NCBI GenBank assembly: GCA_021778935.1
Contig: JAJYBQ010000011.1
Span: 1 to 23,336, forward strand
From: Pseudomonadota bacterium
Lineage (GTDB): Bacteria > Pseudomonadota > Gammaproteobacteria > Burkholderiales > Burkholderiaceae
DNA length: 23,336 nucleotides
Direction: 5' to 3'
The translations under genes were made by a program, and so were the position numbers. Within the stretch, counting starts at the first letter, position 1; every line of letters starts with the position of its first letter. This document shows positions 2,019 to 11,680 of the stretch, one piece after another. The notes below the pieces were generated by a model. That model saw only the letters and a program-made list of their open reading frames with translations. It did no database searches and was not told the DNA's origin.

Positions 2019-2258
2019 GCGATATTGGGCCGGTCCCATATCCGGCCAATCATTTTCCGCCGACGGCTCGCGTAACCCATTGATTTCTGGTGCTGTTGAG
2101 AGGAATCTAATGCGTTTCACCGACACGCGCAAGTGCCCCCATGTGAGCGCAAGCGATTGTTTTTGTTGGGCCAGTCCGCGACCATTCAGTTCATTTGCCC
2201 TCAGATTAGCGCATGCGATACATTTCCGCTGCGTCAAAACTGCGTCAATGCGTCGCTC
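2019..2258. other. Inter-integrase gap, no gene seen
   Basis: This 240-bp stretch between the decayed integrase end and the next integrase start holds no convincing ORF or tRNA. It would be the natural place for an attachment site of the second island. It contains an imperfect palindrome, GGCCGG-(8 nt)-CCGGCC at 2028-2047, with a similar sequence at 11783-11801 near the right edge of the accessory region. Confidence 0.4.
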
Positions 2259-2792
2259 ATGGGAACTGTCAGGAAAAGAGGAAAGAGCTGGTTTGCCGAG
2301 GTGCGGGTCAAGGATCACGCACCCAGGCGATCTTCGCACGACACCAAGGCGCAGGCGCTGGCCTGGGCGTCGAGCGTTGAGGCGCAAATGCGCAACGGCC
2401 AGCGCGCAAATATAGCGGCGGCCGACAAGACGCTGTTTGATGCCATTGAGCGATTCAAGGCGGAGATATTGCCAAGTCGCCGCGGTCACCGAAAGGATGC
2501 GCTGCGACTGGATCGCATCGCGAGAGAGGCCGATTTCCTGGGAAGTCGGCTGCGCGATATCGACAAGCACGACATCAGCCGCTGGCGCGACATGCGCCTG
2601 GGCAGCGTCAGCCCGGCCAGCGTAAATCGGGACATGAATACATTGTCTGCGGTCTTCGTCGCCTGCGTGCGCCGCTGGGATTGGATGACGCGCAACCCGG
2701 TACGCGACACAATGCGTCCCCCAGCCACCAAGCCGCGTGATCGCCGCGTCACGGAAGAAGAAACCGCCGCCATGTGCGACGCGCTCGGACTA
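2259..2792 (+). pseudogene. Phage-type integrase, N-terminal part, cut by IS630 element
   Basis: The frame beginning MGTVRKRGKSWFAEVRV is the N-terminal arm of a tyrosine site-specific integrase, followed by the helical core-binding domain (about residues 50-150, including the VNRDMNTLSAVF segment). The catalytic domain has barely begun (RDRRVTEEETAAMCDALG) when the IS630 element starts after 2792; the frame then runs into the element and stops at 2816. All catalytic residues are absent. The remaining 3' part does not occur on the far side of the element, where the sequence is instead the end of an unrelated minus-strand gene, so the insertion was accompanied or followed by a deletion or rearrangement. 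Start 2259 was chosen because homologous integrases begin this way; a longer frame from 2133 exists but lacks similarity. Confidence 0.82.
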
Positions 2793-2820
2793 TTTATCCG
2801 GCCAAAATGTACTTGAAATC
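2793..2820 (+). repeat. IS630 left terminal inverted repeat
   Basis: Inverted match to 3880-3906: TT(T/G)ATCCGGCC is shared at the tips, with partial matches inward. It begins immediately after a TA dinucleotide. Confidence 0.75.
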
Positions 2821-2837
2821 TGATAGTCTGCCCCGAT

Positions 2838-3881
2838 ATGGGGAAGATGGAAGCAACCGACATGAGATCGTTGTCGCGCGAAGCGCGGCATGAGAGGCGC
2901 GTGCAGGTGATCCGCCTTCGTCGGGCTGGGCGAACGTATGACGAGATCGCCGAGCAGACGGGGCTGAGCCGCACGGGCGTGTTCAATATTTGCCAGCGCC
3001 ACGCGAAGGGCGGAGCACGGGCACTGCATGACGCGGCGTGCGGACGCAAGACGGGCGAGAGGCGGTTGCTCAGCGCCGAGCAGGGATCGGCGGTGTGCAA
3101 GCTGATTGCGGACAAGACGCCCGACCAGTTGAAGATGCCCTACGCATTGTGGTCGCGCACGGCGGTCAGCGGACTCATCGAGCAGCGCTACGGAATCCGG
3201 CTTTCGGCCCGCACGACCGGCAAGTATCTGGCGCGTTGGGGATTTACGCCGCAAAAGCCGATGCGCCGGGCTTACGAACAGTCGCCGACGGCGGTAAAGA
3301 AGTGGCTCGACGAGCAATACCCGGAGATCGAGGCGCGCGCCAAGGCCGAGGGCGCGGAGATCCACTGGGGAGACGAGACCGGATTGCGCAGCGACGACGT
3401 GCGTGGGCGCAGCTACGCACCGCAGGGACAGACGCCGGTAGTTCGCGTCAACAACAAGCGACACGGACTCTCGGTCATTTCCACGGTCACGAACAAGGGA
3501 ACGATGCGCTGGAAGATGTTCGACGGTGCGCTCAACTCCGCCATCCTGATCGATTTCCTGAAGCGGTTGGTCAAGGACGCTGACCGCAAGGTCTACCTGG
3601 TCCTGGACAACCTTCGGGTGCATCACAGCAAGCCGGTGAAGGAGTGGCTGGCCAAGCACCAGGACGACATCGAGGTCTTCTACCTGCCGAGCTACAGCCC
3701 GGAACTGAACCCGGACGAGATGGCCAACGCCGACCTCAAACAAGCGGTGACGAAGCTGGCACCTGCGCGCACGAAGCTGCAACTGGTCGAAGCCACCGCT
3801 CGCCACCTGAAGAGCGTCCAGCGTCAGCCCGAGCGGATCAAAAAATACTTCGAACATGCCCCAGTCCGTTATGCAGCATGA
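2838..3881 (+). CDS. IS630-family transposase
   Basis: This 347-residue DDE transposase would cut and paste its element at TA sites. Residues of about 20-60 form an N-terminal helix-turn-helix (YDEIAEQTGLSRTGVFNI). The catalytic triad is visible: D179 in HWGDETGL, D257 in YLVLDNLRVHHS, and E294 in SPELNPDEMANADLKQ, in the order and spacing of the IS630 family. The length is normal and the frame is intact, so the element could still be active. ATG 2838 is used here; an in-frame ATG at 2847 is equally possible. The stop lies 25 bp inside the right end. Confidence 0.9.
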   Translation: MGKMEATDMRSLSREARHERRVQVIRLRRAGRTYDEIAEQTGLSRTGVFNICQRHAKGGARALHDAACGRKTGERRLLSAEQGSAVCKLIADKTPDQLKMPYALWSRTAVSGLIEQRYGIRLSARTTGKYLARWGFTPQKPMRRAYEQSPTAVKKWLDEQYPEIEARAKAEGAEIHWGDETGLRSDDVRGRSYAPQGQTPVVRVNNKRHGLSVISTVTNKGTMRWKMFDGALNSAILIDFLKRLVKDADRKVYLVLDNLRVHHSKPVKEWLAKHQDDIEVFYLPSYSPELNPDEMANADLKQAVTKLAPARTKLQLVEATARHLKSVQRQPERIKKYFEHAPVRYAA

Positions 3882-3906
3882 TTCAATTTAATTCGGGCCG
3901 GATCAA
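3880..3906 (-). repeat. IS630 right terminal inverted repeat
   Basis: Complement of the left end. Its outermost bases also provide the TGA stop codon (3905-3903, minus strand) of the neighbouring DUF6527-like gene. Confidence 0.75.
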
Positions 3907-4364
3907 TAAAGTGACTTCCACCAGCAAGTCAGATGTTGCAGCCAGTTCATACTTGGTTGCGATTCCTGAGTAGGTGTAATTGGGGCGTTCGGTTGTGCGG
4001 CCGCCTCCTTAGTGTGATTAGTGCGGCGGATTTGAGCGGTTTTGTCGGCACGGTCAGTCGCTTTCACCTGCTGAATCTGGCGATCCGTCATTGCCTTAGC
4101 TTCCAGAACGCGGCTGTCCCGGATCACGTAGTGTGAGCGGCACCGATAGCTCCAGTTGCCGATCGACGGCCAAAGCGACACCCGGCTACCGTTGTGCCTC
4201 ACCGACCATTCGGCTGGGGACAGCGGTGTCACTACTTCCTCCCCGCAGCCGCAGCAGCACTTATGCACCGCCGTTCGGTAGCGTTCGCTGATGTAGAGCA
4301 CGCCCTCTTCGAGTCGCTCCGGGATAAACTCAACGTGTTGAGGCCTGATCTGCTTGATCTTCAT
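3903..4364 (-). CDS. DUF6527-like protein of the ubiquitin-like operon
   Basis: A 153-residue protein with a cysteine-rich centre: C36-C37-C38-x-C40-G (KCCCGCGEEV) and C75-R-S-H78, a likely metal site. The overall pattern matches what I remember as DUF6527, a family repeatedly found beside ThiF/E1 and ubiquitin-like genes; a peptidase-type role in processing the modifier has been suggested for it, which I cannot verify here. Residues of about 105-137 are low-complexity, followed by a Trp-rich tail. The ATG at 4364 lies inside the end of the E1 gene (35-bp overlap), indicating translational coupling. The TGA stop is formed by the IS630 terminal repeat, so the true C-terminus may have been slightly longer; the core looks complete. 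Confidence 0.7.
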   Translation of the reverse strand: MKIKQIRPQHVEFIPERLEEGVLYISERYRTAVHKCCCGCGEEVVTPLSPAEWSVRHNGSRVSLWPSIGNWSYRCRSHYVIRDSRVLEAKAMTDRQIQQVKATDRADKTAQIRRTNHTKEAAAQPNAPITPTQESQPSMNWLQHLTCWWKSLY

Positions 4365-5565
4365 GCGTCGGGAGGTTCAGCGTTTCGCTGCGCGTCAGGG
4401 AGGCGGAGTCGATCGAATAGGTGTGGTGGTGCGGCTGCCAGTGGTCGAGGTAGAACTTGCAGTGCTTCTTCCACAACTGGACAGCGAGGACGGCGTTGAG
4501 CATGTTCATGTCTGCCACCTGAATGTTGCTGCGGTAGAGATCATTCTCCGGAGCATCGCTTTGTGGTGCGCGCCGGCCGAAATGGTCCGATTTCCCCGCA
4601 GTGCACATGGTGGTCCGGCAGGTACCCAGAATGGCGTTTTCCTCCGGCAACACGGTCAACTCCATCCCGGTGTCGGCAAACGGGATGCCCCGTGCGGTGA
4701 GGTATTCGCCCAACATCTTGCGCACACCACCCTTGTCGACGCACAGGAACACGAAATCGAAGCTGCCCAGTTCAGACAGGTTCCCGTCGTCGATGTGGGT
4801 CGAATGCGGATTGATCCCCTTACGCATCTTGGCGTAGATGGCGGCGAAGTATTCGACCTTTGGCATGCCGGCTGCGATGTCCTCAATCGAGGCGGCGCCG
4901 GGAGCACGGAAGGCGCTGTGCTGCTCGAACTTGTCGCCGTCGAAGAGGTGGATTTCACGCACGGGGGTCTTGGCCACAAGGTCAAGAACGTAGCTGCCCG
5001 TGCCGCCCAAACCGACGATGGCCACCCGGGGTTGCGCAAGCTTTGCGGTAACAGCAAGAATGCCGGCGCGCGTCGAGGCGGTATCCCAGTAGTGGAAGAT
5101 CTGTTCCGGGTCGAAAGAGACCACGGGGTCGAACACGTAGGGCTTCGCTTCAGGATTGACGAATGCAGCCTCCGCACAGATCAGCGCGAGATAATGGCGA
5201 ATCTTGGCAGAATGCGTTTTCGGGAAGTCTGCCTGCCCGTGGGGCTTGTTAGAGAAGTGGTGCTGCGCCACAAACCCTGGCCAGAGTTCGCGCGGCCCTT
5301 CGGTGCGATTGAGCGACCGGATCGGTGTGCCATTGGCGTGGCATGGGATATCGCCAACGAACCATACTTGATGGTCGCGCGGCTTGCCGAATGTGCCGAT
5401 GTTGCCGGACAGATCTGTGACCATGATGCCGCGCGCCACCTGCCCGCCTGCATTGACGTAGGGCACTTGATGAACCAACAGGTGCCCATGCATCACCTCG
5501 ACACTCAGTCCCTCGTCCTGAAGGGACTGGATGTCGGGGTCAAGAACGATTGGTCTTGGTGACAT
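4330..5565 (-). CDS. E1-like ThiF-family adenylyltransferase for a ubiquitin-like modifier
   Basis: E1-like enzymes adenylate the C-terminus of a ubiquitin-like protein and pass it on. This 411-residue protein has an N-terminal domain of about 150 residues (including QHHFSNKPHGQADF), resembling what I remember as DUF6791, then a ThiF domain: the nucleotide loop GLGGTGS at 185-191, the acidic strand end LFDGD at 207-211, the FRAPGA turn at 219-224 and the conserved Asp in FLCVDKGG (D277). Cysteines at 316 and 321 (CRTTMC) are candidates for a catalytic thiol, and the YRSNIQVADMNMLNAVLAVQLW helix region follows. ATG 5565 overlaps the last codons of the Ubl gene by 26 bp, and the end overlaps the DUF6527-like gene. 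The frame is intact although the upstream Ubl gene is split. Confidence 0.82.
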   Translation of the reverse strand: MSPRPIVLDPDIQSLQDEGLSVEVMHGHLLVHQVPYVNAGGQVARGIMVTDLSGNIGTFGKPRDHQVWFVGDIPCHANGTPIRSLNRTEGPRELWPGFVAQHHFSNKPHGQADFPKTHSAKIRHYLALICAEAAFVNPEAKPYVFDPVVSFDPEQIFHYWDTASTRAGILAVTAKLAQPRVAIVGLGGTGSYVLDLVAKTPVREIHLFDGDKFEQHSAFRAPGAASIEDIAAGMPKVEYFAAIYAKMRKGINPHSTHIDDGNLSELGSFDFVFLCVDKGGVRKMLGEYLTARGIPFADTGMELTVLPEENAILGTCRTTMCTAGKSDHFGRRAPQSDAPENDLYRSNIQVADMNMLNAVLAVQLWKKHCKFYLDHWQPHHHTYSIDSASLTRSETLNLPTHEDQADQASTR

Positions 5566-5742
5566 TGAACACCATCCCTTCCTTCACATGAACGTCCTGT
5601 CCGGCGACCAGTTCCCCGTCCTTCCCGTGGGGGTTGGCATAGGCGACCGTGAAGTCGACGTCCTGATTGGATGGTTCATTCGGAAAGGCAAGTCTGACGA
5701 TCTCATCGTAGGAAACCGTCTTGCCGGTCACCTCGCGCTGGC
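5540..5742 (-). pseudogene. Ubiquitin-like modifier, 3' part (split by IS21 element)
   Basis: This is the C-terminal two-thirds of a small beta-grasp protein: QREVTGKTVSYDEIVRLAF, then DVDFTVAYANPHGKDGELV, then HVKEGMVFNVTKTNRS. The pattern (a tyrosine-containing helix start, YDEIVRLAF, and the final GMVFNVT strand) is that of the bacterial 'multiubiquitin' domain family as I remember it. The stop codon lies inside the E1 gene. Joined to the 5' part at 9136-9207 after removing the IS21 element and one CTGGC copy, it forms an 89-residue single-domain Ubl in frame. The C-terminus is Arg-Ser, not Gly-Gly, so any E1 chemistry would act on a C-terminal serine or after trimming. As it stands, this part has no start codon of its own. 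Confidence 0.85.
5738..5742. repeat. IS21 target-site duplication, left copy
   Basis: CTGGC, identical to 9136-9140. It marks the insertion point within the Ubl reading frame. Confidence 0.85.
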
Positions 5743-5791
5743 TGCGCGCGCCGGTTTGATTTTGGTGTAAATCCGCCGGTTTGAAACTGCG
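5743..5791. repeat. IS21 left terminal repeats
   Basis: An outer copy at 5743-5760 (contains GCGCCGGTTTGAT) and an inner copy at 5775-5791 (GCCGGTTTGAAACTGCG). They match, inverted, the repeats at the other end at the same distance from the tip. Confidence 0.85.
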
Positions 5792-5832
5792 AACATTTTT
5801 GCTGGCGGCTTTTGGTGCCGGGGCTGCGTGGA

Positions 5833-6606
5833 TCAGGGATCGATCTGGTCTTTCATGCGATAGCTTTTGCCCTCGATGCGCACCGTTTCGGCGTGGTGGA
5901 GCAGTCGGTCGAGCAGCGCGGAGGTGAGCACGCTGTCGTTGTTGAAGATCGTTGGCCATTGCTTGTAGACGCGGTTGGTCGTCAGGAGCGTGGCCCCGCG
6001 CTCGTAGCGATGGCTGATGATCTGGAACAGGCAGTCGGCGCCGAACTTGTCGATGGGCAGGTAGCCCAGTTCGTCGACGCACAGGACGCTGGGTTTGAAG
6101 TAGCGTGCCAGGGCGGCTTTGATGTTGCCGCTGGCGTGGTGCGCGGCGAGCGTGTTGACGATATCGATGGCGCCGGTGAACAGCACGCTATGCCCGCGCA
6201 GGCAGGCGGCGTGGCCCAGGGCGGTCATGATGTGGCTTTTTCCCAGGCCGGTTCCCGAGATGAAGATGATGTTGGCGTGCTCAGCGACGAAGTCCAGGCG
6301 GAACAGGTTCTGGATCTGAGCCCGGTTGATCTTGGTGGGCCAGTTCCAGTTGAACTGGTCCATGGTTTTTTGCACCGGGAAGCGCGCCAGCCGGATGCGC
6401 CGCTGGGTGCTGCGGTCGTCGCGCCAGGCCGCCTCGCCGTTGATGAGCTCGGACAGGTAGTCGATATGCGACCAGCTCTTGTCGGCGGCCGTTTGCGCCA
6501 GGGGCCGGTAGTGCTCGAGCATGAAGGGCAGGCTCATTGCGCCCAGGCGCTGGGCGAGCGGATCGGCGTCGGCCGCCGGCGGGGTTTCAGTTCGTTTGGC
6601 TCGCAT
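5833..6606 (-). CDS. istB: IS21 helper ATPase IstB
   Basis: This 257-residue AAA+ ATPase assembles on target DNA and recruits the IstA transposase. It has an N-terminal helical region (about 1-90) and a Walker A loop, GTGLGKSH, preceded by NIIFISG. The Walker B region is VLCVDELGYLPID, and the arginine-containing end of the fold includes RYERGATLLTTNR. All are typical of the IstB/DnaC-like family and the length is normal. Its ATG at 6606 lies within the last codons of istA (20-bp overlap), the usual istAB coupling. The frame is intact. The C-terminal stop is 90 bp from the element's left tip. Confidence 0.94.
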   Translation of the reverse strand: MRAKRTETPPAADADPLAQRLGAMSLPFMLEHYRPLAQTAADKSWSHIDYLSELINGEAAWRDDRSTQRRIRLARFPVQKTMDQFNWNWPTKINRAQIQNLFRLDFVAEHANIIFISGTGLGKSHIMTALGHAACLRGHSVLFTGAIDIVNTLAAHHASGNIKAALARYFKPSVLCVDELGYLPIDKFGADCLFQIISHRYERGATLLTTNRVYKQWPTIFNNDSVLTSALLDRLLHHAETVRIEGKSYRMKDQIDP

Positions 6607-8068
6607 CGTCGCCTCGGTCGTAGATGGACAGGTCCGGATCGGGAATCTCCAGGTCGAGCAGGTCCTGGCGCCGGGTCAGTTGCAGCGGTGCCGGTACGGG
6701 TTGGATTCGCCTGCGGGCGTCCAGGATGTTGGCGATGTACTCGCAGCTGAAGGCCTGCAGCTCGATGCCGTCGTCGAGCGCGCGCACCAGGGCGTCGCGG
6801 CCGTGGATCTGGGCCAGGGCGAGGATCTTGCGCATGTGCGCGCGGGGGTTGCCGCGCTTGGCCTCCAGGCCCTCGTAGTAGATCTGGGCGCGCGGCGAGA
6901 GCGCGAGGAACTGGCTCATCAGTTGCTGCTCGCGGGCGCGCTGGCGCTGCGCCACAAGCACCCTGGGGTGGTCCGGATCCTCGATGTCCTGGTGCCGGTC
7001 CAAGCAGCGACGGTGGCGGGCGATGAGCTGGTCGCGGTGGTAGATGCAGATGCGGTCCGGATACGCCTTCACGGTCACGCGTTGGTTGGCGTACTGCGCC
7101 GGCACGGAGTAGCGGTTGGCATCGAGGGCAACGCGGAACTGGTTGGAGGCGCGTACCGTGCTCAGGCGCCCGAGATCGAAACCGCAGGCATTGAGCGGGC
7201 GCAGCGCCGTGCGCTCCTGCTCAAACCGGTCGATCGGCCGCTGGTGCGTTTGTCGGTGTACGCGCACGTTGGCGATGGTGTCGACCCACAATTGCGCGGC
7301 CGGCTGCAGGGCGCTAAAGTCGGCAAGCTCCAGACCGGCGAGGAAGTTCTTCTTGACGTACCCGACGCCATTCTCGACTCGCCCTTTTTCGTTTCCCTTA
7401 CCCACGTTGCACGCGGTGATATCAAAGGCCCAGTGACGCGCGAAGTCCAGGTAGCGGGGGTTGAACACCGGCGCCTGGCCGACCAGGCGCTGCAAGACGG
7501 CCGACTTGAGGTTATCGACCATGATCCGTGTTGGCACTGCGCCGAAGGCGGCGAAGGCGTGCTCGTGGCAGCCCAGGAAGAACTCCATGGTCTGCGAGAC
7601 GGTGAACTCCAGATACATCCGGCGGCTGTAGCACAGCACCATCACGAAGAAGCTCAGCTTGCGCCGCGTCGAGCCCACGCCGATGCTGCCGTATGACCCC
7701 CAGTCGACTTGGGCGCACTCACCCGGGGCAAAGGAAAGGGTGAGGAATGCCTCGCGTTTCCTGGGCCGGATCTTGTGAACGTAGTCCTTGACGATGGTTT
7801 CGCCGCCAGCGAATCCTTCCTCGCGCAGGCGCTGCAGAATCTGCTGCGCGCTGTACGGGTGCGTGTCGAGCCAGCGCACGATCAGGCCCTTGTACGGATC
7901 GAGCCGGCTGGCCCGCGCGGTGGCCGCGCGCGGCCGGTACTGCTCGACGCGCGACCACTTCCAGACCGTGCGCGGGTGCAGGCCCAATTCACGGGCGGCC
8001 TGCGCCTGGCTCAGGCGCTGCCGATCGAGCAGATCCCGGATCCTGCAAAACATCTCATAGTCGACCAC
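6587..8068 (-). CDS. istA: IS21 transposase IstA
   Basis: A DDE transposase of the IS21 family. An N-terminal helix-turn-helix (RLSQAQAARELGLHPRTVWK) is followed by an rve-type catalytic core with visible acidic residues: the Asp in CAQVDWGSYG, the Asp in IMVDNLKSAV and the Glu in KGRVENGVGYVKKNF. A Mu-type beta-barrel-like C-terminal domain follows (ANRYSVPAQYANQRVTVKAY). I prefer GTG 8068, which has GGGAG a few bases upstream and gives MVDYEMFCRIRDLL; the same frame extends upstream to 8122 but that overlaps the preceding gene heavily, and ATG 8053 is also possible. The gene overlaps both neighbours, so the four element genes are probably co-translated. Confidence 0.93.
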   Translation of the reverse strand: MVDYEMFCRIRDLLDRQRLSQAQAARELGLHPRTVWKWSRVEQYRPRAATARASRLDPYKGLIVRWLDTHPYSAQQILQRLREEGFAGGETIVKDYVHKIRPRKREAFLTLSFAPGECAQVDWGSYGSIGVGSTRRKLSFFVMVLCYSRRMYLEFTVSQTMEFFLGCHEHAFAAFGAVPTRIMVDNLKSAVLQRLVGQAPVFNPRYLDFARHWAFDITACNVGKGNEKGRVENGVGYVKKNFLAGLELADFSALQPAAQLWVDTIANVRVHRQTHQRPIDRFEQERTALRPLNACGFDLGRLSTVRASNQFRVALDANRYSVPAQYANQRVTVKAYPDRICIYHRDQLIARHRRCLDRHQDIEDPDHPRVLVAQRQRAREQQLMSQFLALSPRAQIYYEGLEAKRGNPRAHMRKILALAQIHGRDALVRALDDGIELQAFSCEYIANILDARRRIQPVPAPLQLTRRQDLLDLEIPDPDLSIYDRGDDASQTN

Positions 8069-8471
8069 GGCCGCTCCCGAACTGCTCGCGCAAGCGTTGC
8101 AAATGCTCGCGCGCCGCTTCACGGTCCATCGATGCCGGCGGCGTGGTGATCGCTGCCACCACCGGCGCCGGGGCCGGCAAGGCCAGGACCTGGTAGACCG
8201 GCGCCTGGTAGGCGATCAGGTCGGCGCCGATCAGCCGGTCGCGCGCGTCGTTCAATTGATCGGCCGTCAGTTGCAGGTGCCGGCAAAGCGCCGCCGGGCC
8301 GTAGTAGCTCAGGCCCTGGGCATCGGCCACCGTGACCAGGAACAGATACAGGGCGGCCGCCGGCGGATTGCATCGATCGATGAATCCGCCGCGCACCAGC
8401 TGCTGATCAACCCAGCTGAACTGCGGGGGCACGCGCCGCAGCCGCTGCGGCCAAAGCACGCGTTTGATCAT
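8055..8471 (-). CDS. Accessory protein of the IS21-like element (HTH-like)
   Basis: This 138-residue soluble protein begins MIKRVLWPQRLRRVPPQFSWVDQ. The middle (ALYLFLVTVADAQGLSYYG... LCRHLQLTADQLNDARDRLIGADLIAY) has the look of a winged helix-turn-helix of the replication-initiator or helicase-loader type. From memory, proteins like this recur directly upstream of istA in a subset of proteobacterial IS21 relatives, paired with the cysteine-containing ORF seen just before it. The stop overlaps the preferred istA start. Its role could be regulating the istAB transcript or helping choose the target; neither is visible in the sequence. Confidence 0.75.
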   Translation of the reverse strand: MIKRVLWPQRLRRVPPQFSWVDQQLVRGGFIDRCNPPAAALYLFLVTVADAQGLSYYGPAALCRHLQLTADQLNDARDRLIGADLIAYQAPVYQVLALPAPAPVVAAITTPPASMDREAAREHLQRLREQFGSGRGRL

Positions 8472-8949
8472 GGAAACCGCCTCCTCCAGCCATGACGTCG
8501 GTGCCCAGTTGTACGAGCCGACGGGTGGTGTCGGCTATCTCCTCTTGTAACGTCACTTGGAACAGATGCGCGATCAGGCCCGCCAGCACTGGCGCCGCGG
8601 CTCCCAACAGATCTTGTAACGGCGCCAGGGGGGGCGTGGTACGAACGACCGATTCCCCTTTAAGATCATCAAGTTGCAAGATGCACTGATCTTGTAACGC
8701 CGGCGCCGAGCGCCGGCTCCGCTCGTAGCCCGGGTGCGCGGCGCGCCAGGCCTGCACGCGCGCTACGTGAACGGGGCCGCGGAAGTAGTCCAGGTTCTCG
8801 GGTTTGGATTGCCAGCGCTTGTGGCTGGCCAGCTTGCTCGCGTGCCGGCAGGCCTCGGCGGCGCAGTACCGCTGTCGCGACCCGACGCGCCGGTCCGGGT
8901 CAAAATACCGGCCGCAACTCAAGCACTTGCGTTGTCCCGCTTGCGCCAT
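8407..8949 (-). CDS. Accessory Cys-containing protein of the IS21-like element
   Basis: A 180-residue protein. The N-terminus carries a probable zinc-binding motif: CLSCGRYF (C-x2-C), then RQRYCAAEACRHASK (C-x4-C), followed by the basic segment HKRWQSKPENLDYFRGP, a likely nucleic-acid-binding surface. The C-terminal half is Ala/Leu-rich and probably helical (LQDLLGAAAPVLAGLIAHLFQVTLQEEIADTTRRL). It overlaps the next ORF by 65 bp and is the first gene of the four-gene element. I remember this ORF as a regular companion of the HTH-like ORF and istAB in some proteobacteria, but it has no established function that I know of. Three copies of CGTTACAAGA lie inside its coding sequence. Confidence 0.72.
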   Translation of the reverse strand: MAQAGQRKCLSCGRYFDPDRRVGSRQRYCAAEACRHASKLASHKRWQSKPENLDYFRGPVHVARVQAWRAAHPGYERSRRSAPALQDQCILQLDDLKGESVVRTTPPLAPLQDLLGAAAPVLAGLIAHLFQVTLQEEIADTTRRLVQLGTDVMAGGGGFHDQTRALAAAAAARAPAVQLG

Positions 8950-9086
8950 CGCCGCCTCCCGGCCACGCCGACAAAAGCAGCAACGCTAACCGCACCGGCA
9001 TCGCCGGCCAGGGCGCAAGAAAATCAAACGACGCGAAGAAGACGCGTCAGAGACGCAGCTCGGAAGAAAATCGACGAAGAAGATTA

Positions 9087-9135
9087 CGCAACTTCAAACC
9101 GGCCAGATCGCGGCACTTTCAGGTCGGCGCTCACA
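9087..9135. repeat. IS21 right terminal repeats
   Basis: The inner copy (minus strand GCCGGTTTGAAGTTGCG) is at 9103-9087; the outer tip (minus strand TGTGAGCGCCGACCTGA) starts at 9135. The inner copy starts 32 nt from the tip, the same as at the left end. Confidence 0.85.
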
Positions 9136-9140
9136 CTGGC
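9136..9140. repeat. IS21 target-site duplication, right copy
   Basis: CTGGC, identical to 5738-5742. Confidence 0.85.
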
Positions 9141-9207
9141 GACCATTGACGATGATGGTAACGGTTTTGTCCTGACCGAAAGCATCGCTGCTGTTGGAGT
9201 TACTCAT
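9136..9207 (-). pseudogene. Ubiquitin-like modifier, 5' part (split by IS21 element)
   Basis: Reading leftward from ATG 9207 gives MSNSNSSDAFGQDKTVTII followed by VNGRQ, at which point the IS21 element begins; translation continues 13 codons into the element and stops at TGA. A flexible Ser/Asn-rich start followed by a first beta strand (KTVTIIVNGR) is what the beta-grasp fold needs, and it joins in frame to QREVTGKTV at 5740 once the element and one CTGGC are removed. The segment AAGGAAAAGGAA lies just upstream of the ATG and supplies a ribosome-binding site. It is too short to appear as a gene by itself and would be missed by most annotation. The reconstructed protein is 89 residues. Confidence 0.85.
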
Positions 9208-9285
9208 TTCCTTTTCCTTATGTGACGAAGGGTTGTCGCTCCCACGCATCATCGCTCCTTCACGAAATGTATGTTAGCGCGTCTA

Positions 9286-9315
9286 ATAGTACGCCTGGGC
9301 TTCCAACGCTGTCAA
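9286..9315 (-). promoter_or_regulatory. Promoter of the Ubl-E1-DUF6527 operon
   Basis: On the minus strand, TTGACA (9315-9310) is followed after 18 bp by TACTAT (9291-9286). Transcription would start near 9279, giving a leader of about 70 nt before the Ubl ATG at 9207. The whole divergent region to the TIGR04255-like gene is only 172 bp, so the two operons probably share control sequences. Confidence 0.6.
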
Positions 9316-9379
9316 GTAATGCGTATGATTGACGTAAATTGAAGTAGCGCCCCCCTTAAACACACCAGGAGGTATGACC

Positions 9380-10204
9380 GTGAGCAATCAGGACCGGGCG
9401 CTGGGCAAGTGGCCCAACGCGCCGTTGGCCCTTGTGCTGGCGCAAATCCGTTTTGATCCCGAAGTCGACACCGAGTACAAGGAGGTTTCTGCGCGCCTCA
9501 AGGCCGTGCTGAGTGGGCGCTTTCCCGCCATGAAGGCCGTGCGCCAAGTGACGTTTGTATTCGGCAACACGCCTGGCCCGGCAATGGAGTCCAAGCCGAA
9601 CGAGGGCGAGGTCGGCCGCGAGTTGCGCAGCGACGACAATCGTGCCGCTTTGCGCCTTCAGGATGGGGTGATGACCTACACCACCTCCCTCTACGAGGAT
9701 TCGCAGCACTTCCTCGCGGAATGGCGGTCCATGCTGGACTGCCTGTGTGCCGCCGGAGGGGTCGTGGTGCAGCGGCTAGGCCTGCGCTACGTTGACTTCA
9801 TCATCCCCACGGCTGGAAAGATGCCCGAGGACTACTTCGAGGACGGATTTGGGCAATTGACCCACGTCTTCGGCGAAATCGCCCCAACTGCCTTCATGAG
9901 CCACGAATACCCCCGAGGGGCCGATGGGGCGATGCGCGTCCAGTTTGGACGGGGCTTTGCACCTCCTTCACTGCCGCCTGATCTCGATGGTCCCGTTCAG
10001 CCCCCTCCCGGCTTGTTGAGGAAATACACCACAGGGCAGCCATCGGCAGTGCTGGACATCGACCGCTGGCGCGTGGACTCCCGTCGAATGCAGACGGAAG
10101 AAATCACCGATGAATTCCAGCGCCTTCGCGACGATATCTGCATGGCATTTAGGCGTATCACTACGCGAGAAGCCGAGGCTGAGTGGTCGGGCCAGCCGGC
10201 ATAA
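9380..10204 (+). CDS. TIGR04255-like family protein
   Basis: A soluble protein of 274 residues with no signal peptide or membrane segment. The start (WPNAPLALVLAQIRFDP) and the middle (GGVVVQRLGLRYVDFIIP) match what I remember of the sporadically distributed TIGR04255 family, which is of unknown function and often found on islands near toxin or defence genes. Start choice: ATG 9374 directly abuts AGGAGGT (9367-9373) with no spacer, whereas GTG 9380 has a 6-nt spacer, so GTG 9380 is preferred. It is the first gene of a three-gene operon: its TAA (10202-10204) runs into the ribosome-binding site of the HTH gene 10 bp downstream. No catalytic motif is evident. Confidence 0.75.
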   Translation: MSNQDRALGKWPNAPLALVLAQIRFDPEVDTEYKEVSARLKAVLSGRFPAMKAVRQVTFVFGNTPGPAMESKPNEGEVGRELRSDDNRAALRLQDGVMTYTTSLYEDSQHFLAEWRSMLDCLCAAGGVVVQRLGLRYVDFIIPTAGKMPEDYFEDGFGQLTHVFGEIAPTAFMSHEYPRGADGAMRVQFGRGFAPPSLPPDLDGPVQPPPGLLRKYTTGQPSAVLDIDRWRVDSRRMQTEEITDEFQRLRDDICMAFRRITTREAEAEWSGQPA

Positions 10205-10214
10205 GGAGGAGAGA

Positions 10215-10940
10215 ATGCGCAATTCACTAGCGCAGGCCAGCCGTGATTTCGCGATCTGTCATGGTGCCATGCGTGGTCTCTATTGCGAAGGGACCGGAAG
10301 CGTCATCGACGAGGAACGGTCTGACCCTTTCCAAGGCGTTCCGCGCGTGTGGACGCTGTTGAACCCCGCCACTCGGTATTCGCGGGAAGGCCATTCGGCG
10401 ACGACCGGCGTTTGCGTCGTTATCACCAAGAATCAAATCGACCTCCCAAAAGCCCCTGAGGCGATGGAGTCCAACCTCGATGCCGCGCCACCCTCCATCG
10501 CGCTCTCACCGGCATCCGTTCTGGACAGGGTGCGTACCGTCTTCGGGCTGAACATCAGCGAGACCGCCGAGGTTTTCGGAATCACGCGGCAGACGGCCTA
10601 CCAATGGATGAAGCTCACCGACATGGAGCAGGTACGCTCCTACGAGAATCGCGACCGCATCAAGCAACTCTACATCGCGGCGCGATCATGGCAGAGCCAC
10701 CCGCTGCTCAAGGGGCGCTGGCTCCATGCGCTCCTGCCTTCTGGCAAGACCCTGCTAGACGTTCTCAAAGATTCTCCGGTCGATCTCAATGCCCTGCAGG
10801 CCGCTTATCAAGCGCTCGTCGTCAGCACGGCTGACAGAGCACGCGAGGAGGGTGAGCGCGCGACCCAGGCAGGCACTGCGCTGGCTGGCGCGTTTGCAGA
10901 CCTCGGTGCAGGTCGCAAGGCTCGAAAGGGGGCGAGCTGA
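10215..10940 (+). CDS. HTH protein, probable partner or antitoxin of the zeta-type kinase
   Basis: A 241-residue protein preceded by AAGGAGG with ideal spacing; ATG 10215 is chosen over an upstream ATG lying inside the previous gene. Residues of about 101-133 form a helix-turn-helix (VRTVFGLNISETAEVFGITRQTAYQWMKL) of Xre-like character. The region after it (RSYENRDRIKQLYIAARSW... LLKGRWLHALLPSGKTLLDVL) is reminiscent of the toxin-binding half of Xre/Res-type antitoxins. The C-terminus is Ala/Glu-rich and helical. The N-terminal 95 residues have no family I recognise. Its stop overlaps the likely start of the zeta-type kinase gene by 3 nt (CTGA). The antitoxin or repressor role is inferred from position. 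Confidence 0.7.
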   Translation: MRNSLAQASRDFAICHGAMRGLYCEGTGSVIDEERSDPFQGVPRVWTLLNPATRYSREGHSATTGVCVVITKNQIDLPKAPEAMESNLDAAPPSIALSPASVLDRVRTVFGLNISETAEVFGITRQTAYQWMKLTDMEQVRSYENRDRIKQLYIAARSWQSHPLLKGRWLHALLPSGKTLLDVLKDSPVDLNALQAAYQALVVSTADRAREEGERATQAGTALAGAFADLGAGRKARKGAS

Positions 10941-11680
10941 ATCCGCTCGCAGCCTTTCTGAAGCACTTGCAGGCGCGCTTGCGCGAGATCCCAAAACAGG
11001 ATCGCCGCCTGCTGGTGGTGATCGCCGGTCATAACGGTGCCGGCAAAACCACGATCTACAACGAGAGACTTGCTGCCGCCCTCGCCGCCGATCTGGCGGC
11101 CCATATCAACCCGGATGAGATCGAGCAGACGATAACCCTCGATCTCGGCGAGCAAAGTCTTACCAAGGATGAATTGGAAGAACTTGCAGCGAAGGAAGCT
11201 GCCCGCCTACGCCAGCAATACCTCGACCGGGAGATCAACTTCAGCTTCGAGACGGTGCTCTCCGATCCCATGCAGGACAAGGTGCACTTCATGGCGGAAG
11301 CCTGTCGACGCGGCTATCTGGTGGTGCTCATTGCTGTCGGCCTCGATTCAATAGAATTATCAAAGGCGCGCGTGGCCATCCGGCACGCCAAGGGCGGCCA
11401 CACTGTCAGGGAGGACAAGATTGAGGGTCGTTACGAGCGGGTCCTGCTGAATTTCGCACACGGCGCTCGCACCGCTACGTTGGCGATCTTTTTCGACAAT
11501 AGCGAGGATCGCAGCGGGGACGACTTGGATACCTACTGGGACATTGCTTTTTTTGAGAATGGGAAGCTGAATGTCAAGGATGAATCTCCACCGGCATGGT
11601 GGCATCAAGTTGAGAAGTACTTTCTATCAGTTCAATGCCGGTGCAACGTGAATCGCCCAGGTCTTGCAGATATGCCTTAG
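10937..11680 (+). CDS. Zeta-toxin-like P-loop kinase
   Basis: Zeta toxins phosphorylate UDP-N-acetylglucosamine and block cell-wall synthesis; some relatives act on other substrates. With the start used here (247 residues), the Walker A loop GHNGAGKTT is at 31-39, NPDE with the likely base Asp60 at 58-61, FSFET at 103-107, and the Arg/Gly-rich substrate loop KGGHTVREDKIEGRYER at 152-168, all in zeta-family order. The start is unusual: no ATG or GTG fits. CTG 10937 overlaps the upstream stop as CTGA, has AAAGGGGG a few bases upstream and gives MNPLAAFLKHLQ; TTG 10967 is the alternative. Third gene of the operon. I see no epsilon-type antitoxin; the HTH gene is the only candidate. Confidence 0.82.
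   Translation: MNPLAAFLKHLQARLREIPKQDRRLLVVIAGHNGAGKTTIYNERLAAALAADLAAHINPDEIEQTITLDLGEQSLTKDELEELAAKEAARLRQQYLDREINFSFETVLSDPMQDKVHFMAEACRRGYLVVLIAVGLDSIELSKARVAIRHAKGGHTVREDKIEGRYERVLLNFAHGARTATLAIFFDNSEDRSGDDLDTYWDIAFFENGKLNVKDESPPAWWHQVEKYFLSVQCRCNVNRPGLADMP

Follow-up and report, generated by a model that had tools for sequence, protein, structure and literature searches.

A four-gene IS21 element in the ubiquitin-like gene of a Bub-like operon, with a proposed loss of the pathway

Does an operon that seems to hold an E1-like protein without a ubiquitin-like protein (Ubl) represent a separate type, or has its modifier gene been broken? The question is raised by a stretch of 23,336 nucleotides from a Burkholderiaceae bacterium (GenBank assembly GCA_021778935.1, contig JAJYBQ010000011.1, positions 1 to 23,336), hereafter the window. 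An original prediction, made from the letters alone, held that a ubiquitin-like modifier gene (ubl) at 5540-9207 is split by an IS21 element, that it can be reconstructed exactly, and that the insertion is probably recent, other damage being absent. We hold with high confidence that a four-gene IS21 element lies in the ubl of a Bub-like ubl-E1-DUF6527 operon, with a proposed loss of Ubl and the pathway switched off. The break is real; that an IS21 element should disrupt the leading gene of an operon of known kind is ordinary. Named relatives point to a betaproteobacterial host.

The interrupted gene and the element within it

The element interrupts ubl at codons 23-24, and the features at the break are as follows.

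5540..5742, minus strand: ubl 3' piece, from the rest of codon 23 through the stop
5738..5742: target-site duplication CTGGC, copy 2
5743..9135, minus strand: IS21-family element, 3,393 bp, genes co-oriented with ubl, ends TG...CA
9136..9140: target-site duplication CTGGC, copy 1
9141..9207, minus strand: ubl 5' piece, covering codons 1-22 plus base 1 of codon 23
5540..6082, minus strand: spurious 180-residue open reading frame, made of the element end in the frame overlapping istB and the ubl 3' piece

Read on the minus strand from 9207, the DNA encodes 24 Ubl residues ending in VNGRQ followed by 13 codons of element sequence, and the frame closes at 9097 for a predicted product of 37 residues. 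From 5740 the same strand reads QREVTGK...TKTNRS, 66 residues up to the stop at 5540. One Gln is common to both pieces because the duplication is present twice; when it is counted once, the pieces (67 + 203 = 270 nt) join in frame with a single stop at codon 90 and give 89 residues. The window DNA bears out the coordinates of both pieces, the CTGGC copies and the frame as originally predicted, together with the exact 89-residue reconstruction with its one terminal stop and the spurious frame overlapping istB. The gene was also called recoverable, which holds in the sense of reading the sequence only.

Homologues join the two pieces as well. The 3' piece alone as query returned 189 homologues, and among the 120 listed, which are mostly 89 residues long, the best match to the 5' piece preceded that to the 3' piece by exactly 23 residues in 115 (the remaining five had offsets of 5, 12, 24, 21 and -14). 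Uninterrupted DNA runs through the insertion site in Ferrovum myxofaciens (L002) and in a Rhodocyclaceae genome (L003). The two halves, which relatives might have assigned to separate genes, form a single gene in the 115 homologues, L002 and L003. The closest homologue among those listed, P0001, differs from the reconstructed Ubl at 6 of 89 residues, matches the 3' piece at 94%, and shares 14 residues encoded upstream of the ubl start (window translated by eye).

A Ubl profile was built from 37 relatives, with the window left out, and run on all six frames of the window. It found the two pieces only, with 134.6 bits over profile positions 24-89 and 27.9 bits (E 4.8e-8) over positions 1-26; the next match scored 1.3 bits (E 9.3). 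The reconstructed protein scores 176.0 bits, within the 171.0-181.7 bits of the six intact homologues printed of 40 scored, all six of which are in the profile themselves.

The element carries four genes, all on the minus strand.

5833..6606: istB helper ATPase, NF038214 250.8 bits (cut-off 200)
6587..8122: istA transposase, NF033546 280.6 bits (cut-off 160)
8055..8471: accessory orfY, 138 residues, 58% identity to its Caballeronia element counterpart
8407..8949: accessory orfX, 180 residues, 52% identity to its Caballeronia element counterpart

With istA and istB both above their curated cut-offs, the element belongs to the IS21 family. Terminal TG...CA and a brief duplication of the target, a feature of IS21, are both present here, the duplication being of 5 bp. 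Imperfect inner terminal repeats at 5775-5791 and 9087-9103 are 88% complementary, and neither orfX nor orfY had a match in Pfam or NCBIfam searches. Caballeronia sp. SBC1 and SBC2 carry IS21 elements with the same gene order (istB-istA-orfY-orfX), and the 3.1 kb that align are 68% identical in DNA, but these elements occupy other insertion sites, and protein identity is 52-68%. Four copies of the Caballeronia element, at different sites, all start with TG and end with CA at equivalent places, which supports the ends at 5743 and 9135. By eye, a short flanking duplication is seen in copies L015, L016 and L017 and not in L001.

The operon and known ubiquitin-like systems

The genes downstream of ubl, and the promoter that precedes it, are listed here.

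3903..4364, minus strand: DUF6527 protein (HxCCCGCG ... PSIGNW ... CxSHY), PF20137 80.8 bits
4330..5565, minus strand: E1-like protein, N-terminal DUF6791 and ThiF adenylation domain, start codon inside the ubl 3' end
9286..9315, minus strand: sigma-70-like promoter (TTGACA-18-TACTAT) ahead of the 5' piece

Placement of the Ubl in the multiubiquitin family, which the original prediction had proposed to check, holds from the 3' piece alone (5540-5740), which matches PF14452 at 56.4 bits against a gathering cut-off of 24.5. Judged by family membership, the Ubl is expected to have a beta-grasp fold. The last domain of PDB 9cd2, the ZDHYS365 multi-ubiquitin protein, aligns by sequence over profile positions 6-89 (E 2.2e-15) and ends in TQTDKS, which resembles the TKTNRS of the window; the 9cd2 chain, however, has 222 residues with the match limited to 137-222, whereas the window Ubl is single-domain. 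The window protein ends in TNRS and lacks the C-terminal Gly-Gly of the ubiquitin, ThiS and MoaD carriers; in relatives' loci the last residue is Ser in 20 of 21 and Ala in the other. The putative modifier role is suggested by the operon.

The E1-like protein scores 139.1 bits against PF20590, 59.4 against PF00899 and 460.7 against NF004804 (cut-off 340). In Bub and row 6e operons the ubl gene precedes a ThiF-type E1 that carries a fused N-terminal domain, and this arrangement is found in the window and in all 13 named loci. The end of ubl (VTKTNRS) and the start of E1 (MSPRPIVL) share the DNA at 5540-5565 in two frames, as in 12 of the 13 named loci, and a separate gene between the two is impossible since they overlap.

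The window operon resembles the published Bub (bacterial ubiquitination-like) operons or the 'row 6e' operons of Iyer et al. 2006. In the Citrobacter BubA-BubB-BubCD system (PDB 9ea4, 9eav, 9eae) the E1-like protein has a fused N-terminal part, as here, and the best structure match to the ThiF domain of the E1 model is Citrobacter BubCD. There are differences, however. Citrobacter BubA is longer, the solved complexes using residues 155-229, whereas the window Ubl is one domain of 89 residues; the Bub operon has BubB, and none is seen in the window operon. The N-terminal part of BubCD and the window DUF6791 share no sequence match. Structure matches of the E1 model cover mainly residues 145-392, so their lack of an E2 hit for DUF6791 carries no weight; DUF6791 falls outside them, as it does outside the sequence matches, and a distant E1 (L036) as a PDB query gave no match at 1e-5 that would link DUF6791 to the BubC part. 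PADLOC had no match for DUF6527 or for a Ubl relative (P0002), and its E1-E2 models match the E1 in the ThiF part only (best E 1.4e-7). Work by Ye et al. (2026) on Bub reportedly describes oxyester intermediates and a Ser-His protease; a literature search for BubCD returned no paper.

For row 6e operons, Iyer et al. describe a Ubl, an E1 and a small predicted metal-binding protein, with a solo Ubl in one species and with an E1 N-terminal domain replacing JAB in some species (PMC1779556). Row 6e polyUbl operons differ from the window in that no separate RWD/E2 gene is present here and in that the first gene is broken by IS21. The same text gives the small protein the signature C-x(3)-C-x(35-38)-H-x(2)-C; in the window DUF6527 the C-x(3)-C fits, but the second half reads C-x(2)-H. 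Residues H34, C36, C38, C40, C75 and H78 of DUF6527 are invariant in 14 of 14 alignment rows, and its predicted model (mean predicted local distance difference test score, pLDDT, 76.8) had no Foldseek match below E 0.3. Many DUF6527 proteins, including that of the window (3903-4364) and several of L002-L013, have a short W/F/L-rich tail that looks amphipathic by eye and is possibly membrane-binding.

The promoter matches 10 of 12 positions, lies in a stretch conserved in L002 and L003, and was the only one found in 5400-9420, where shuffled sequence would give 0.7. An imperfect inverted repeat at 9270-9288 (minus strand TATTAG-ACGCG-CTAACATA), seen by eye, touches the -10 hexamer within the conserved stretch and is a possible operator.

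Consequence and age of the insertion

In an intact pathway, E1 would adenylate Ubl at its C-terminus, transfer to targets would fall to the N-terminal DUF6791 domain or to a recruited E2, and DUF6527 would trim or remove the Ubl. The insertion probably abolishes Ubl, and it probably also uncouples translation of E1 from that of ubl because the E1 start codon sits inside ubl. The native promoter (9315-9286) would now read a 37-residue stub and then enter the element, and this locus would make no functional Ubl. E1 and DUF6527, if made at all, would rely on read-through from the co-oriented istAB, with translational coupling gone. Since an E1 without Ubl has no known substrate, the pathway would be off unless another ubl copy exists; in 11 relatives' genomes, E1 itself has a single match each at 1e-20.

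The E1 and DUF6527 genes look undamaged. The window keeps all 84 E1 columns and all 29 DUF6527 columns that are invariant in 13 relatives, and all 41 invariant or nearly invariant columns of Ubl. The ratio of nonsynonymous to synonymous substitution rates (dN/dS) for E1 is 0.13-0.19 in pairs with the window and 0.14-0.19 when two intact relatives are compared; the 3' piece of ubl has corresponding ranges of 0.06-0.15 and 0.08-0.16. Because dS is 0.4-0.9, only long decay is excluded. The insertion is apparently recent, as had been proposed: the lack of other visible damage in conserved columns and dN/dS supports that proposal, but the insertion is undated by these data.

Two other readings of the junctions are very unlikely. 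An assembly artefact is scarcely credible, because TG...CA ends with a 5-bp duplication are hardly produced by misassembly and the two pieces align end to end with relatives. Hardly more credible is a reversible switch in which some cells regain ubl by exact excision. In its favour, both element ends and both duplication copies are intact, but exact excision is atypical of IS21 and no invertible or regulated feature was seen.

More plausible than either, though still unlikely, is that the insertion was selected, with Ubl loss giving relief from a defence-like conjugation pathway, or from the adjoining zeta-kinase trio described below, that is costly or self-toxic. The broken gene, ubl, is both the first of its operon and the shortest, the trio genes remain open, and Bub operons are termed putative immune pathways, often beside DNA-damage-responsive regulators, in PMC13373217. 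Against this, that paper states that phage protection by Bub operons has yet to be shown, a single insertion is no test of selection, and nothing separates selection from chance transposition. The insertion of IS21 into ubl means that automated gene calling is likely wrong here: the apparently missing modifier gene is an IS21 knockout with no other visible damage, a caution against taking operons with 'E1 without Ubl' for a separate type. The window would offer a locus that is naturally Ubl-null, in which E1 and the adjoining kinase trio are intact.

Divergent neighbours and wider surroundings

Three genes on the plus strand diverge from the ubl operon out of one intergenic region.

9374..10204, plus strand: TIGR04255 family protein, 101.3 bits (cut-off 30)
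10110..10940, plus strand: helix-turn-helix (HTH) protein, HTH matches below cut-off only
10967..11680, plus strand: zeta-toxin-like P-loop kinase, PF06414 48.8 bits (cut-off 22.3)

The start of the HTH gene is uncertain, relatives suggesting about 10215; its product is 67% and 65% identical to those of L002 and L003. The trio holds the same place in 5 of 21 relatives (L002, L003, L004, L009 and L029). L002, L003, L004 and L009 seeded the trio profiles (L004 not for HTH), so their matches arise by construction, and L029 was no seed; tblastn with the window proteins independently found the trios of the seed loci, down to 33% (TIGR04255) and 35% (HTH).

Regulator kinds reported for Bub adjoin the operon in some other relatives. 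By sequence reading, an IrrE-type peptidase, a protein of ~145 residues and a sigma-factor-like protein diverge from the operon in L006, L007, L008, L010, L011 and L012, other IrrE-type genes lie upstream in L014 and L032, and in L034 and L035 IrrE is fused to a part resembling a helicase. WYL-type genes were read upstream in L030 and L033, and CapK+CapS-like genes in L013 and L036 and in part in L005; L031 was left unclassified, and upstream DNA was short (1.5-2.3 kb) in L005, L007 and L011. These classes are mostly sequence reading because Pfam covered only ten neighbours; it confirmed Peptidase_M78 in L012 (57.5 bits) and L014, and WYL in L030. Sigma70_r2 in L012 (22.4 bits, cut-off 24) and HTH in L013 fell below cut-off, and no Pfam family was found for the L012 middle, L013 CapK-like, L006 sigma-like, L005 CapS-like and L004 HTH proteins.

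Among 544 Bub operons, PMC13373217 reports CapW or CapH+CapP at 219 and CapK+CapS at 59. The window trio matches none of these, being neither CapW (WYL), CapH+CapP (HTH and peptidase) nor CapK+CapS (GHKL kinase and STAS-wHTH); its matches are to TIGR04255, weakly to HTH, and to zeta toxin/P-loop families only. The word zeta is absent from the main text of PMC13373217, and a literature search for TIGR04255 returned no paper. We tentatively suggest that the trio could be a dedicated, undescribed control or killing module of Bub-like operons, holding the place of the WYL, IrrE-based or CapK/CapS-like regulators. A role as Bub controller or effector, if it has one, would make the trio a further module next to the three DNA-damage-responsive regulator families named in that paper. 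The trio is more interesting than the IS breakage itself.

Scanned first with the E1 protein, the genomes yielded no confirmed relative; a scan with the Ubl alignment gave 13 loci. At E 1e-40, 11 of the 399 genomes covered from one order have an E1 relative; these include those of L002 and L003, eight more were taken with wide surroundings, and G334 was left out. In the order of G003, 8 of 300 genomes match at E 1e-100, seven as before and that of L004 added. Plasmid records matched E1 in 132 of 72,556 cases, all under 60% identity. E1 had no match in 50,697 phage records at E 1e-5, and none of 27 matches of the Ubl pattern in viral contigs was confirmed; a phage-borne origin was therefore dropped.

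At window positions 2133-3881 an integrase N-terminal part (Int_N match only) directly adjoins a transposase gene of IS630 type; the integrase may be broken and may mark the edge of a mobile island. A possible defence cluster in this region is suggested by a Fic protein at 426-1658, which matches PADLOC SoFic (80.9 bits).

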